Origin: a virus
DNA length: 56,799 nucleotides
Strand: one strand, 5' to 3'
IMG/VR virus record: IMGVR_UViG_3300042691_033294
Location: 1 to 56,799 of that record
Under the pieces are notes generated by a model, which was not told the DNA's origin, did not search any database, and saw only the letters and a list, made by a program, of their open reading frames with translations. Position 1 is the stretch's first letter. Every line of letters begins with the position of its first letter. Shown here piece by piece: positions 4,352 through 52,050 of the stretch. The position numbers and the translations under genes are program-made.

Positions 4352-4716
4352 TCTGTACCTCCGTCAAGTAAAACAGTTGCTTCGTTGCGGCTGTACTTGC
4401 CCACTGAAACTCTGCGATTGAGAGTGACCGAGCCATCTACAACATATATATAATGTTGTGATGCATCATGAGAGGTAGAAGGCAATAAAACAGAATAGCG
4501 AATTATTTTGCGACCGTCTGATAAAATTCCTACTTCTTCGCCACCCTGAGACAAAGAGTTTATATTGTAATCTTTATGACGTTTCAAGTTTGCTTCATGA
4601 TAAGAAGAAATATCAAGCTGATTACAGCCAATCAAGGAGGATGTTATGGAAAGTCCGGTGATAATAAGGCACCAGCCCAACAACGTCCATATTAACAAAT
4701 TCGCACAATGACGCAT
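4348..4716 (-). CDS. Lipoprotein with lipobox SLIGC
   Basis: The start MRHC is chosen because an AAAGGAG ribosome-binding site precedes it. The N-terminus has a hydrophobic stretch ending in SLIGC, a lipobox expected to be cut before Cys and lipidated in the bacterial envelope. The mature part of about 95 residues is hydrophilic. An envelope role such as superinfection exclusion is inference. Confidence 0.7.
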   Translation of the reverse strand: MRHCANLLIWTLLGWCLIITGLSITSSLIGCNQLDISSYHEANLKRHKDYNINSLSQGGEEVGILSDGRKIIRYSVLLPSTSHDASQHYIYVVDGSVTLNRRVSVGKYSRNEATVLLDGGTE

Positions 4717-4730
4717 TATTTTTCGCTCCT

Positions 4731-5108
4731 TTAGCTTATAAAAACTTTTAATCCATAAAATCCATAACATTTATTGTTGCTACAAGTAATCTTTCCACCA
4801 AAATAACTTGCCAACTCTTTTAGTACAACAACGGGATCTGCACCGTCAATCGGCCACTTTAGTTCGTCTGCGAACTCAAGATATGATTGTGTTTTGTGTT
4901 CATGAAATAAAATTATTGCTGAAAACCTTTTTTTATATACGCGCTTGTCTACTATAAATCTAACTATCTTACCACTCTTTAAATTCCAACTATTGACTAT
5001 ATTAATAATCGTTTGAGTTTCTGGAAGTAGTTGCTTTTGTGCAAAACAAACTTTAGGAGCGAGTAGTGCGGCCCCAATTATTTTAATCGCGTTTCTTCTT
5101 TGTGTCAT
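4731..5108 (-). CDS. Exported protein with twin-arginine-like signal
   Basis: The N-terminus has twin arginines (TQRRNAIKII), a hydrophobic core and a CFA-Q cleavage-like site near residue 24, typical of Tat or Sec export. The mature part has a CSNNKC pair near the C-terminus that could form a disulfide. A consensus-like promoter lies just upstream. Neighbouring lipoprotein gene suggests a small exported-protein operon. Function unknown. Confidence 0.7.
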   Translation of the reverse strand: MTQRRNAIKIIGAALLAPKVCFAQKQLLPETQTIINIVNSWNLKSGKIVRFIVDKRVYKKRFSAIILFHEHKTQSYLEFADELKWPIDGADPVVVLKELASYFGGKITCSNNKCYGFYGLKVFIS

Positions 5109-33447: not shown

Positions 33448-33528
33448 TTAACTCCTTGCAACGTATTCACTAACTAAATAAGCGCCAATAATCAATGCGC
33501 ACAATAAAATTTTCTTGTATTTATTCAT
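33448..33528 (-). CDS. Tiny membrane peptide, 26 aa
   Basis: ATG overlaps the UvsE stop (ATGAATAA). Sequence begins MNKYKKILLCALIIGAY: a basic start and one hydrophobic helix. Its end carries the ribosome-binding site of the next gene. Confidence 0.5.
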   Translation of the reverse strand: MNKYKKILLCALIIGAYLVSEYVARS

Positions 33529-34615
33529 CTTTATCGCCTTTTAAAATTTCTTTGAGTTTTGAAAGTGCAGCCGGTGGCATAACTTGAGTGTCATCATCCC
33601 ATACTATGGTATATACATTCTCGCTTTTGCTCTGATCTTTGTCAACGCCATACATCCCTAATTTTTCAGATTCATGGATTAATTCTATTTGTGACAAGGC
33701 TCGTATAGCTGGATCTTTCTGCTTGAGTTCGATATCAAAATCAACCTTTTCTGCGTCTTCACCAAACTCAATGTACGGGGTAGAAGTAGGCATATCTGCG
33801 TGCCTGCGATCATTTGTGATAGACTCGCTATAGTGAAACAATGGAACATAGCCAAGCGATTTCCAAGTTTCTACACATGATGAAAAAGCGGTATCTTCTC
33901 CGGTTTCGTTAACCATATGGGGTGACGGATTGCACTTGTGATGTAGATTATCAAACGTAATGGGAATAGTATACTTTTTCCAAAAATACTCTAGTAGCAT
34001 AAGAACATTCCACATGCCCTTGTCTTCGTTTTCTACTACAAGTCTAGTGCGTACCGATTTGTTGCACTTGGCTAGATTTTCTACAAATCTTCGGGCGATT
34101 TCATCGGGAGTTCCGTCCGAGCAATTAACGTGAATATTTATTGGACTAGAATAGTCTTGCTTGCATCCTAGCAAATCCAAAACGGCCCCATGAAAGTTTA
34201 GCTCTTTGATGGTTTTATGTACAGCGTCTTGATTTTTGCTTGCTAGAACATTGAATTGATCTGGATGGCAAGAAATCCTTATGTTTTTATCGGCAAGATA
34301 GTCTTTGATCTTTGCAAATTCTTGTAGTATTTCTTGGTATTGCGGGACTAGCCTAGAGTCACCAGGAAATTCTGGATGGGTCAATAGTGGCATCAGAGAC
34401 GACGAAACTCTATAGCCCCAGCCGTTGTTTACACAGTGTTCTATAACACGTTTGGTTACTTGGATGTTGTTTAACCATCTCGCCCCAAGTTCTTCTAGAG
34501 CCGATTCTAGGCCATTAGCATCACGCAATTCACAAAACCTAGCCCATGTCATGGTCTTGAACGAAACATTTTCTTTTTTTAATTCTTCACTAATACAACA
34601 CAAATTATACATCAT
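33521..34615 (-). CDS. uvsE: UV damage endonuclease UvsE/UVDE
   Basis: 364 aa TIM-barrel nuclease that nicks 5' of UV photoproducts. Family blocks visible: YRVSSSLMPLLTHPE, IRISCHPDQFNVLAS, VVENEDKGMW, PITFDNLHHKCNP, and VPLFHYSES, which supply the His/Glu/Asp metal ligands. Start MMYNLCC follows a GGAG site. Confidence 0.93.
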   Translation of the reverse strand: MMYNLCCISEELKKENVSFKTMTWARFCELRDANGLESALEELGARWLNNIQVTKRVIEHCVNNGWGYRVSSSLMPLLTHPEFPGDSRLVPQYQEILQEFAKIKDYLADKNIRISCHPDQFNVLASKNQDAVHKTIKELNFHGAVLDLLGCKQDYSSPINIHVNCSDGTPDEIARRFVENLAKCNKSVRTRLVVENEDKGMWNVLMLLEYFWKKYTIPITFDNLHHKCNPSPHMVNETGEDTAFSSCVETWKSLGYVPLFHYSESITNDRRHADMPTSTPYIEFGEDAEKVDFDIELKQKDPAIRALSQIELIHESEKLGMYGVDKDQSKSENVYTIVWDDDTQVMPPAALSKLKEILKGDKDE

Positions 34616-34841
34616 TAAACTCCGATGAAACAACTATACAAACAACGCTACAAATCATTATACTAACAAAAAACCTTTCCTCAAGAGAAAACTCTCGATA
34701 GCCTATAAATTTTTCGTCAGGATATATTTCTTGGTTTTGTTTTATTAAAAAAGAACAGCTATAAGCAAATAAAACGTATGCCAAGTATAAAAAGGACTTA
34801 GATAAAAAATGCCTAGTGATACTTTTTATTGAATCTTTCAC
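34605..34841 (-). CDS. Small membrane protein, 78 aa
   Basis: Two hydrophobic segments (about 16-33 and 57-73) around a charged loop. Overlaps the uvsE start. Unknown function. Confidence 0.6.
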   Translation of the reverse strand: MKDSIKSITRHFLSKSFLYLAYVLFAYSCSFLIKQNQEIYPDEKFIGYREFSLEERFFVSIMICSVVCIVVSSEFNDV

Positions 34842-34862: not shown

Positions 34863-35231
34863 TTAACAAATATTTCTTTCTACAAAATCTTTTATGTCTA
34901 AAAAACTACAACGAATTGTTGTGTAGTTAGATTCGCGCAATAGCGAAATCATAGTTCTTGCCGCATCATAATTCAAGGAGTGAACAACCACTTGCTTGAC
35001 TATCACGGGCTCGCTAATCATTTCTCGTACAACCTGCATACCAGTATTAAACTCTTGTGAGTCTTGGTACGTTTCGCCGCCAAGGTCATGATCTAGAAAA
35101 ATCCAATCCCACTCTTTAGTACGCAAAAGATCTATACATTCCTGTGCCGTACTAACAGTTGTAGCAGATGGAACCAAAGATCTAAATTTCTTGGTTCTTT
35201 GTGGGCAATCATCCAAAAATAAAATATTCAT
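34863..35231 (-). CDS. cREC-like receiver-domain protein
   Basis: 122 aa receiver-like fold with FLDDCPQR (5-12), WIFLDHDLGG (about 43-52) and VVHSLNYDAARTM. This pattern matches the cyclic-phosphate processing receiver (cREC) family, predicted by comparative genomics to act on RNA ends rather than in two-component signalling. It sits directly downstream of Ro60, which strengthens an RNA-processing reading. Activity is untested. Confidence 0.75.
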   Translation of the reverse strand: MNILFLDDCPQRTKKFRSLVPSATTVSTAQECIDLLRTKEWDWIFLDHDLGGETYQDSQEFNTGMQVVREMISEPVIVKQVVVHSLNYDAARTMISLLRESNYTTIRCSFLDIKDFVERNIC

Positions 35232-35287: not shown

Positions 35288-36868
35288 TTATCTAGTAAAT
35301 CCAGAGATAATCGAAGTAATATCTGGAGAAAATCCAGAAATATCTAATTGTAGTGGGTCTTTTGGATCGGCTACAGAATATGGAACCGATTGTAGTCCAC
35401 AGACAATCATCGAACTTTGTCGCGACATCTTTTGTCTAAATTCTTTTAGGGCCACAGTTGGGTGCGACCCAGTATTAACTTCGCAGTCTGTTATAATAAC
35501 AAAACAATCTGCTGGAATTTTGTTGTCTGTTGCATACTTGATAGCAGCAGCAGCACTCGTAGCTCCGAAATTACGCATTAAACATTTGCTAGATGCCGAG
35601 TTTAATGTGTCTCGCTTGCTAATTTTTAGGTCAACAAAACCACTAGCAAATCCACCAACAAAAGTGTTTGCTTCTGATCTTAGGTGTGCCATTGCTAACA
35701 CAGCCGCAATCTCACAGTATTTTAGTCCAGTTGAAGGCTCTAGCCAACCCATAGAACCAGATACGTCGATTCCGTACAGGTAGTTTTTACCAGTTGGCTC
35801 GATAGCATCAAATGATAAGTAGAAAGCTGTTTCAAGAGCATCTACAATCGAATTGTTTACTTGCCAAGTTCCAGATCCTAGCTTGCTATGACCACTTTCG
35901 TATGTCTTTTTCGCTACTAGAATTGTTAATGGGTGAAGCTTATTTGATTTTAGGAATTCTTTGTCTGTAAGTTTTTCAACTACAAATTTAGAAGCATCAC
36001 TAAAAACGCCTAGCAATCCGCTTTTGGACATATTTCCAAGGTTTCTTAAAAGCGCAGTTCCTCCAAGGTTTGGCAACATAACTTCTTGAACTTCTTTTGT
36101 GTTCAAAAATTTAGTTGGCACATGCTCTCTTTGAAGACCATAAGTAGAAATCATTTCCAGAACTTCTTTTAGAGATTCTGTTTTATGAACTCTAACAAAT
36201 GCATCAATCAAAGCTTCGCCATTGTTGGCCGTATTGAACGCTACATTTTTTCCTGCAACCCAATTGGAAATCCTGTTCTTTGCTTCGCTGTTTGCGAAAC
36301 TTGGGTGAGCAAGTCTAAACACATCTAGGTGCGACCAGCCTTCGCGATTTTGGTATTTTGTTACTTGATTAGCAAAACTAATATCGCTTCTTCCGATGTA
36401 CCAATTGTTAATTGCTGCTCTTACAGACTTACCAAATCCTCTCATAGATTTGATAAAGCTAGCAAACATAAACAAGTGTGTACCGGTTCTAACTACACTA
36501 TTGAAAGCTTTTACGGCTTGTTGCTTAGCGTCGTTTGATCCATGAGCGAATACCAATGCAAGAGCAAAAATAGCATGATCGTTCTTATGAGATAGGTTAT
36601 TTGTAGAAATTCTAACAATTTCCGAAACAACCCTAGTCCCATCTTGCTTGATGCAGCTAATAACGTTTTCGAAGTTATTGTATTGGTGATTATTTTTGGA
36701 AATATAGTAGGTTCCAGAGGTTGCCCCCATGATTAAAAATCTTTCTAGGAATTTAAAATCATCTAGCTTGAATCCGTATCCACCACCAGAGTTTGCTACC
36801 ATTTCAGAAGATCTGCCAACGATTTTTTGTCTAACAGATCCATTTGTCAAAGAATACTTGAAATTCAT
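35288..36868 (-). CDS. Ro60 / TROVE RNA-binding protein
   Basis: 526 aa. The N-terminal two thirds fit the HEAT-like TROVE ring (for example RTGTHLFMFASFIKSMRGFG near 128-147 and WYIGRS near 156). The C-terminal third is a von Willebrand A domain with MIDAS motif DVSGSM (368-373). Ro60 binds misfolded RNAs in its cavity and Y RNAs on its outside, and in bacteria can link to RNA degradation. Two Y-like RNA candidates and tRNA-like RNAs lie immediately upstream in the same transcription unit. Complete, with a normal length. Confidence 0.93.
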   Translation of the reverse strand: MNFKYSLTNGSVRQKIVGRSSEMVANSGGGYGFKLDDFKFLERFLIMGATSGTYYISKNNHQYNNFENVISCIKQDGTRVVSEIVRISTNNLSHKNDHAIFALALVFAHGSNDAKQQAVKAFNSVVRTGTHLFMFASFIKSMRGFGKSVRAAINNWYIGRSDISFANQVTKYQNREGWSHLDVFRLAHPSFANSEAKNRISNWVAGKNVAFNTANNGEALIDAFVRVHKTESLKEVLEMISTYGLQREHVPTKFLNTKEVQEVMLPNLGGTALLRNLGNMSKSGLLGVFSDASKFVVEKLTDKEFLKSNKLHPLTILVAKKTYESGHSKLGSGTWQVNNSIVDALETAFYLSFDAIEPTGKNYLYGIDVSGSMGWLEPSTGLKYCEIAAVLAMAHLRSEANTFVGGFASGFVDLKISKRDTLNSASSKCLMRNFGATSAAAAIKYATDNKIPADCFVIITDCEVNTGSHPTVALKEFRQKMSRQSSMIVCGLQSVPYSVADPKDPLQLDISGFSPDITSIISGFTR

Positions 36869-36907: not shown

Positions 36908-36968
36908 TGAGTAAAATATTTGAAAAGGTTTTTTTCTACCAAAAGATAACCCTTTTCATTCGTACTCA
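36908..36968 (-). ncRNA. Candidate Y-like RNA C
   Basis: 61 nt, ending 40 nt before the Ro60 start codon. Terminal stem TGAGTA/TACTCA, internal loop CGAAT opposite AAATATTT, then a 7-bp stem GAAAAGG/CCTTTTC and a loop starting GTTATC. It shares core and fold with RNA B (37171-37234), but the terminal stem differs in sequence while keeping pairing, which is covariation. Identification as Y RNA is inference from location and fold. Confidence 0.6.
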
Positions 36969-36970
36969 AA

Positions 36971-37092
36971 GGCCGGGAATAGGATTCGAACCTATAACTT
37001 CGCCATTACAATTGGATAACCTTGAATGAGCGTACACGATTGTCAAAATTTATTCAAGACTTTTACGCGCTCTACCGTTGAGCTATCCCGGC
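36971..37092 (-). tRNA. tRNA-Thr (TGT) split by a 50-nt insert
   Basis: Ends are a normal tRNA: GCCGGGA/TCCCGGC, D-stem GCTC/GAGC, T-arm ATAGG-TTCGAAT-CCTAT. Removing positions 37016-37065 restores a 72-nt tRNA with perfect anticodon stem CGCCA/TGGCG and loop ATTGTAA (anticodon TGT). The insert lies between stem bases 28 and 29. A second tRNA-Thr(TGT) at 51966 is uninterrupted. It may be an unusual intron, or a Ro60-binding arm grafted on a tRNA. Confidence 0.75.
37016..37065 (-). other. Insert in tRNA-Thr related to Y-like RNAs
   Basis: 50 nt with a CTTGAAT/ATTCAAG hairpin (one arm base lies at the edge). Its 3' end aligns without gaps to the 5' strand of RNAs B and C over 21 positions, sharing ACG and the final GGTTAT. 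Too short for a group I or II intron. Confidence 0.65.
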
Positions 37093-37094
37093 AG

Positions 37095-37167
37095 TGGTCA
37101 CAATAGGATTCGAACCTATAACTTCTACTGTGTAAAAGTAGCACTCTAGCCGTTGAGTTATGCGACC
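37095..37167 (-). tRNA. tRNA-Val (TAC)
   Basis: Acceptor GGTCGCA/TGTGACC, anticodon arm CTACT-TTTACAC-AGTAG, T-arm ATAGG-TTCGAAT-CCTAT identical to that of the split tRNA-Thr. Confidence 0.93.
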
Positions 37168-37170
37168 GTA

Positions 37171-37234
37171 AGGGGCAAATATTCGAAAAGGACTTTTCCA
37201 ATTTACAGTTGATAACCCTTCTCAATCGTCCCCT
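37171..37234 (-). ncRNA. Candidate Y-like RNA B
   Basis: 64 nt starting at the predicted transcription start of the consensus promoter 8 nt upstream. Terminal stem AGGGG/CCCCT, internal loop ACGATT opposite GAATATTTG, stem GAGAAGG/CCTTTTC (with one G-U), and a GTTATC loop start. Shares core with RNA C but not the terminal stem. An alternative is a decayed tRNA-Tyr, since CTGTAAA occurs in its loop, but no T-arm exists. Confidence 0.6.
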
Positions 37235-37242
37235 GTGTTTTT

Positions 37243-37271
37243 ATTATACACCACAGTTGATTAAATGTCAA
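37243..37271 (-). promoter_or_regulatory. Sigma70 consensus promoter of the Ro60/RNA unit
   Basis: Perfect TTGACA-17 bp-TATAAT. RNA B begins 8 nt after the -10 box, so RNA B, tRNA-Val, split tRNA-Thr, RNA C and Ro60 can form one transcript. Confidence 0.9.
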
Positions 37272-38285: not shown

Positions 38286-38312
38286 CTAGGCCGCGAGAAC
38301 GCAGTTTCCTAC
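38286..38312 (-). other. tmRNA tag reading frame VGNCVLAA
   Basis: GTA GGA AAC TGC GTT CTC GCG GCC TAG follows the first pseudoknot and an AAATGAC stretch, the usual spot of the resume codon. The tag ends in LAA like host tags recognised by ClpXP. The exact resume codon is inferred. Confidence 0.75.
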
Positions 38313-38409
38313 GTCATTTAAAAAATTAATCGAGTATTTAAGTGGCCTCTCGATCAACCACTACATGCAGTTATTGATTCAAATTTCGGATCGAATCCAA
38401 TTCACCCCC

Positions 38410-38516
38410 TAATCGCCGTTTTTTATAATGAGAAAACGGTTCGGAATAAAAACTCATACAATTATCGCTTAGTATAAACGATAAAAGACTTCCTACCACT
38501 CATGGTGGCGGAATAG
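38410..38516 (-). other. Intervening spacer of the permuted tmRNA
   Basis: 107 nt between the acceptor 3' end and the coding 5' end, expected to be cut out during maturation. Contains a TTTATCGTTTA stretch also found near the left edge of the window. Confidence 0.6.
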
Positions 38517-38594
38517 TGGAGGTGGGCGGTATCGAGCCGCCGTGTCCGACAATATCATCAATAACGTCTACATGTTTACTCGCTTGCGCGAGAG

Positions 38595-51964: not shown

Positions 51965-51965
51965 G

Positions 51966-52050
51966 AGCCGCCTATAGGACTCGAACCTACAGTGAAGTTT
52001 CCTTCGTCTGATTACAAATCAGATCCCTTACCAATTCGGGGCAAAGCGGC
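51966..52050 (-). tRNA. tRNA-Thr (TGT) with long variable arm
   Basis: Acceptor GCCGCTT/AGGCGGC, anticodon arm TCTGA-TTTGTAA-TCAGA. Variable arm GAAG-GAAA-CTTC is class II-like, unusual for Thr. Confidence 0.88.

Follow-up and report, generated by a model that had tools for sequence, protein, structure and literature searches.

A probable natural tRNA-Y RNA chimera, with a permuted Ro60-type stem in its anticodon arm, encoded beside a viral Ro60 gene

When a tRNA-like gene carries 50 additional nucleotides within its anticodon stem and lies close to a gene for Ro60, the question arises as to whether the additional stretch is removed to leave a decoding tRNA, or whether it is itself a functional part of the RNA. 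This question is posed by a locus in a viral DNA of 56,799 nucleotides (IMG/VR record IMGVR_UViG_3300042691_033294), considered here over its full length and referred to as the window. The gene occupies 122 nt on the minus strand (36971..37092), all of which are matched by the Rfam tRNA model RF00005 with 46.8 bits against a gathering score of 29, and it was not called by ARAGORN. An earlier note on this DNA had described it as a tRNA-Thr that is restored by removing 50 nt between bases 28 and 29, and had offered either a new type of intron or a tRNA-Y chimera as the explanation. The restoration is confirmed, as excision of 37016-37065 after base 28 yields a perfect cloverleaf with UGU at the anticodon position, the most stable result among the eight cut positions tried. 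Regarding the choice between the two explanations, the locus is best understood, with a probability of roughly 0.88 for the reading as a whole, as a natural tRNA-Y chimera that holds a circularly permuted Ro60-type Y stem in its anticodon arm and works as proposed below.

The gene combines a full tRNA body, in which the RF00005 match and covariation reveal acceptor, D and T arms, with an insert located between tRNA positions 28 and 29 (37016..37065, minus strand) and composed of a strand resembling the Y 3' side, a closing loop and a Y 5' strand. The modules are therefore read in the order acceptor, D arm, Y 3' strand, loop, Y 5' strand, T arm and acceptor. The Ro60 site of Y RNAs consists of a 7-bp helix, a single bulged C and a 3-nt bulge opposite, and a UUAUC motif is characteristic of Y RNAs and sbRNAs (PMC4726728). 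Counterparts of these features are all found in the minus strand of the insert: an upper 7-bp helix (5' strand CUUGAAU, 37052..37058; 3' strand AUUCAAG, 37021..37027), a single bulged C in a Ro60-type lower stem GUA-C-G (37032..37032), a small bulge opposite and the loop motif in the form GUUAUC (37015..37020). Both strands of the upper helix are 100% paired across 7 distinct sequences, with two-sided changes in 3 pairs; the bulged C is invariant across all phage copies, and the loop motif recurs in the two free Y RNAs of the window (RNAs B and C) and in bacterial copies. A mini-hairpin, CCA-AUUGUAA-UGG (37003..37015, minus strand), can be read as an anticodon hairpin with UGU, and its loop is variable in relatives. 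In the window, the lower Y stem of the chimera is imperfect (G-A and U-C mismatches), and the insert folded alone gives only a moderate score (z -0.66). The two in-house covariance models introduced below, R1 and R2, score the gene at 112.6 and 95.4 bits, respectively, the window copy being part of both training sets. With Ro60-site features in a permuted order next to a Ro60 gene, the sequence speaks for the chimera alternative of the earlier note.

The chimera gene belongs to a cassette, entirely on the minus strand, in which a promoter is followed by Y RNA B, a tRNA-Val, the chimera, Y RNA C and the Ro60 gene. The -35 box TTGACA (37266..37271), conserved in the related viral contigs L002, L014, L015 and L018, and the likewise conserved -10 box TATAAT (37243..37248) are separated by a 17-nt spacer, and the promoter terminates immediately before RNA B (37172..37233). 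This RNA is conserved in L002, has a counterpart in L014, L015 and L018, and folds like a Y RNA with a 5' bulge, a 4-nt bulge on the 3' side (z -1.65) and a small hairpin after UUAUC. An ordinary tRNA-Val(UAC) (37094..37167) sits between RNA B and the chimera, which is followed by RNA C (36909..36967; fold z -1.63), also conserved in L002. The Ro60 protein of 526 aa (35288..36868) comprises TROVE and vWA domains (PF05731, 3.6e-32; PF25045, 4.3e-37), with 1yvp (7e-88) and 2nvo (6.9e-78) as relatives in the PDB. Downstream of it lies a gene for a cREC protein (34863..35231; PF20274, 1.7e-16) with a predicted role in cyclic-phosphate processing, and L002 also encodes a short receiver-like ORF at this position. 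Near the Ro60 and cREC genes, a homologue of the UV-endonuclease UvdE is encoded at 33521-34633 (minus strand). Elsewhere in the window, a permuted two-piece tmRNA gene is found at 38286-38575 (minus strand; RF04321, 66.6 bits against a gathering score of 47), and a second tRNA with anticodon UGU at 51965-52050 (minus strand), whose variable arm GAAG-GAAA-CUUC is unusually long for a tRNA-Thr.

The resemblance of the insert to the adjoining Y RNAs holds at the level of individual nucleotides, since its 3' end aligns ungapped to RNAs B and C, as had been claimed, with 14 of 23 positions identical to each. Among 20,000 dinucleotide shuffles, this identity was reached in 85 for RNA B, in 398 for RNA C and in 61 for both together, and the resemblance is strengthened by relatives in which the 7-bp insert stem is kept with compensatory changes. 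A further pairing proposed in the earlier note, between GGCGAAG and UUUUGAC, is not conserved, because the closest relative carries GGCGAUG.

That closest relative, L002, was found by a Ro60 search of IMG/VR viral contigs and encodes a Ro60 88% identical to that of the window, whereas an alignment-based Ro60 search added L014, L015 and L018 (53-55% identical); a further Ro60 contig, L001, is truncated inside this gene. The succession of promoter, Y RNA and chimera is the same in L002, L014, L015 and L018, the last three of which each carry a second chimera built on a different tRNA body. The insert is identical to that of L002 at 48 of 50 positions, and is kept structurally in L014, L015 and L018. 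Within each lineage, the free Y RNAs and the inserts have a loop motif in common, namely GGUUAUC in the window and L002 and GAUUAAC in L014, L015 and L018. In these three contigs the lower stem UUUUAC-UAU-GUA-C-GA closely resembles that of RNA C in the window (GUA-C-GAA/UUUUAC), except that three nucleotides close the end that is open there, and the insert is therefore taken to be a permuted Y stem. In terms of ungapped identity to free Y RNAs, neither the 3'-like strand of the insert nor the T2 inserts reached significance, although the motifs agree. A pattern search blind to Ro60 returned 70 stretches, among which a T loop together with the 7-bp stem was present only in Ro60 contigs. The exact pattern GTTATCCAATTGTAATGGCGAAG was absent from the viral contigs, the pattern AGGTTATCCAATTGTAATGG occurred there in the L002 contig only, and matches to a looser pattern in L019 and L020, where no tRNA was found, were judged to be due to chance. 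Neither megablast of 24 kb nor a blastn search with the chimera gene produced a match in the phage collection, and no convincing chimera was seen in the Ro60 phages known from actinobacteria and Agrobacterium (L165-L170). Between the two chimeras of L015 lie some 190 nt (4664-4858) that are missing from its close relatives L014 and L018.

For bacteria, one genome search with a Ro60 alignment provided 75 loci. Model R1, built from phage copies only, finds full-length chimeras beside many of them, and the same insert appears in many different tRNA bodies adjoining Ro60. The bacterial consensus reads D arm, 7 nt, CUUGCCC, loop, GGGC-C-GAAG, 7 nt, GGUUAUC, hairpin and T arm, with a core CUUGCCC-loop-GGGCCGAAG-...-GGUUAUC and a self-complementary acceptor stem in the host tRNA. 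Because R1 alone separates chimeras poorly from ordinary tRNAs, a second model (R2) was made, which gives a chimera of at least 55 bits in 43 of the 75 Ro60 loci, about 35 of these copies having served for training; the anatomy is the same in held-out bacterial copies. Among the matches in 12 whole genomes, all full-length ones (>100 nt) of at least 57 bits fall inside a Ro60 locus, and the remaining matches listed are mostly ordinary tRNAs of 71-74 nt. Across 100 genomes of the class of G006, matches of chimera length occur in two only, the same two that encode TROVE and both members of the training set. A broader comparison is offered by 134 genomes of the class of G004, of which 15 have a chimera and 16 have TROVE: 12 have both, always on the same contig and a few kb apart, 3 have only the chimera and 4 only TROVE. 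When the four training genomes are set aside, the counts are 8 with both, 3 with the chimera only, 4 with TROVE only and 115 with neither (Fisher p 4.6e-8, uncorrected for genome relatedness). In G171, G188 and G231 a chimera is present and no TROVE was found, which may reflect missing contigs or other genes. As far as can be judged from sequence, the chimera design is recurrent across bacterial phyla. Other RNAs were seen near bacterial Ro60 genes as well. For instance, Limnoglobus roseus has several chimeras and free Y RNAs packed densely together ahead of its Ro60 gene (L117 3128-3850), some of them carrying GUUCUC instead of GUUAUC; Minicystis rosea, too, has a chimera close to Ro60. In addition, RNAs near Ro60 at L094 3823-3891, L116 3589-3658 and L117 3357-3425 exceed the Rfam gathering score of the nematode sbRNA family ceN72-3_ceN74-2 and are probably free Y RNAs.

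Conservation of the structure is borne out by covariation. In eight phage copies, 95.2% of the cells are paired and 13 pairs show two-sided changes; pairing is complete in the acceptor stem (6 such pairs), in the T stem (1) and in the 7-bp upper Y stem (3). The covariation score of these copies, which come from few lineages, is 0.505, in comparison with 0.156 +/- 0.029 after shuffling and at most 0.144 when the structure is slid. From an alignment of 40 bacterial copies, and with no structure given, RNAalifold recovers the acceptor, D, T and lower Y stems, 17 of its 20 pairs showing compensatory changes. For the upper stem, an alignment-free comparison showed that pairing is better between the two strands of one copy than between swapped strands, the observed mean being reached in 0 of 2,000 permutations.

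These data bear directly on the other explanations of the locus, of which the most conventional is an intron-containing tRNA-Thr(UGU), whose 50 nt would be removed and whose halves would be joined to give a decoding tRNA. The perfect cloverleaf obtained by deletion is what this explanation predicts, and some phages do carry RNA ligases, to which the nearby cREC gene can be added. Against it, the would-be anticodon loop reads AUUGUAA both in the window and in L002, but AUUGCUAA (8 nt), AUGCUAA and CUGUUAA in the otherwise nearly identical L014, L015 and L018, respectively; with loop sequence and length varying in this way, decoding is not what is conserved. Bacterial copies have many different triplets in this loop, often in the form CUNNUAA, so that the conserved anticodon in a 7-nt loop expected of a decoding tRNA is lacking. 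Free RNA B has a similar hairpin with the loop CUGUAAA, and from this likeness and the variable triplets the mini-hairpin seems to belong to the Y module rather than to serve decoding. Moreover, the insert is conserved at least as well as the tRNA body (2 of 44 columns differ between window and L002, against 8 of 27 in the acceptor and D arm), it recurs in many tRNA bodies beside Ro60, its 50 nt are far below group I size, no Rfam intron family matches in the window, and another tRNA with a UGU anticodon is already available. An intron is thus highly improbable and, as the intron reading fails, "tRNA-Thr" is a poor name for this gene. The presence of that second UGU tRNA, and of adjoining Y RNAs that resemble the insert, would equally suit a functionless pseudogene, that is, a tRNA broken by a copy of its neighbour. 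Such an origin hardly accounts for a chimera kept across phages whose Ro60 proteins are only ~54% identical, for compensatory changes in the acceptor, T and Y stems, for recurrence across bacterial phyla or for the strict co-conservation with Ro60 observed together with the covariation, and it is regarded as extremely improbable.

A more subtle alternative is that the RNA is a YrlA in disguise, with mature ends in the Y loop and acceptor halves that pair between neighbouring copies, so that tandem copies amount to ordinary YrlA. Consistent with this, the YrlA model RF02553 scores weakly over a tandem-chimera junction (G007:C61:9092-9238, 39.1 bits), a match which also suggests that one of the two forms arose from tandem copies of the other. 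The acceptor strands nevertheless pair inside each copy, 7 of 7 in 51 of 70 copies against a mean of 3.6 when swapped, and do so even where the neighbour has a different acceptor (L014 T1, T2). In addition, G148, G167 and G223 have a single model hit each, CCA is encoded after N73 in 8 of 69 copies, and the YrlA gathering score is reached by none of the genomes tested. This alternative is accordingly very unlikely.

According to the preferred reading, that of a tRNA-Y chimera, the original open end of the Y stem would be closed by a short loop, while its original loop end would open into the tRNA. A strong promoter of the sigma70 type would drive transcription of Y-B, tRNA-Val, the chimera and Y-C, and then of Ro60, and the chimera would be freed with tRNA-like ends by RNase P and 3' tRNA processing, with no splicing. 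The tRNA part would then fold and be handled as a tRNA, with the Y stem held by Ro60, a binding suggested by the genomic linkage, i.e., the downstream Ro60 gene and the co-occurrence of both. In analogy to what has been proposed for YrlA, the resulting complex could act as an adaptor, or as a gate or decoy, connecting Ro60 to tRNA-handling or RNA-repair enzymes; an adaptor or decoy joining Ro60 to tRNA-handling enzymes would be the simplest view of function, and for such a role as a whole the chances appear about even. The function of YrlA itself is only partly known. Published work links Ro60 and YrlA both to PNPase and to RNA repair operons, and competition for a nuclease has been suggested as a possible role of the tRNA-like part (PMC7790460; PMC8394870).

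It is tempting, though somewhat speculative, to regard the chimeras as an unnamed and widespread class of Ro60 RNAs: tRNAs with real ends, some of them CCA-encoded, in which a permuted Y stem replaces the decoding arm, bringing Ro60 to the tRNA machinery or shielding by mimicry, and from which YrlA descended through tandem copies whose ends shifted by half a unit. Bacterial Y RNAs are known as tRNA mimics. In the chimera, found in phages as well as in many phyla, the tRNA part is an intact body with predicted ends of its own, which makes the reason for this mimicry testable: it can be asked by which tRNA enzymes the chimera is processed, modified, charged or cleaved, and whether Ro60 rides along. 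The chimera also offers a simple possible route to YrlA, by circular permutation through tandem copies, as well as a warning that tRNA scans miss such genes or list them as odd tRNAs.

When compared with known systems, the chimera has the 7-bp helix, single bulged C, small opposite bulge and UUAUC motif of an ordinary Y RNA (PMC4726728), but its Y strands are permuted and lie inside a tRNA, whereas RNAs B and C of the window have the ordinary form. Like intron-containing tRNAs (group I in bacteria, BHB in archaea) it has an insert in the anticodon arm, which is nevertheless too short for group I, is oddly positioned at 28/29, accompanies an anticodon that is not conserved and is kept as a Ro60-type stem. 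Placing an RNA in the anticodon stem of a tRNA, as in the chimera, is also the principle of the engineered tRNA scaffold. That scaffold is a laboratory construct for RNA expression (PMC3753655), whereas the chimera is natural and widespread. A literature search, outside of which lay the main YrlA papers (Chen 2014; Sim and Wolin 2018; Wang 2018; Sim 2020), returned no mention of the chimera form, and an earlier description is possible.

The closest known relative is YrlA (RF02553), with which the chimera shares a tRNA-like body with D and T arms (RF00005 match, covariation), a Ro60-type Y stem replacing the anticodon stem, a UUAUC-like motif and a gene beside Ro60. The window reaches only 20.7 bits with the YrlA model, over tRNA-Val and chimera, against a gathering score of 69, and 0 of 16 records pass; since these include phages with an apparent YrlA order, the cut-off is strict. 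Such an order is visible in L162, LinStu (L168) and Pumpernickel (L170). The annotation of Rhodococcus phage Trina places a 209-nt "tRNA-OTHER" pseudogene immediately upstream of Ro60 (L169 2598-2806); this stretch contains GAGCCGACUAUGUAUCGGUUAUC and a T arm, and is perhaps a YrlA-like RNA. In the Rfam model, YrlA runs from the T arm through a closed acceptor to the D arm, with the Y strands at its ends; the Y stem is thus terminal and the acceptor closed by a loop, whereas the chimera has its predicted ends in the acceptor stem and its Y stem closed by a loop. The circular permutation proposed in the earlier note is borne out by this reversed order and, judged by the arrangement of its modules, the chimera is a circular permutant of YrlA with what are predicted to be true tRNA ends.
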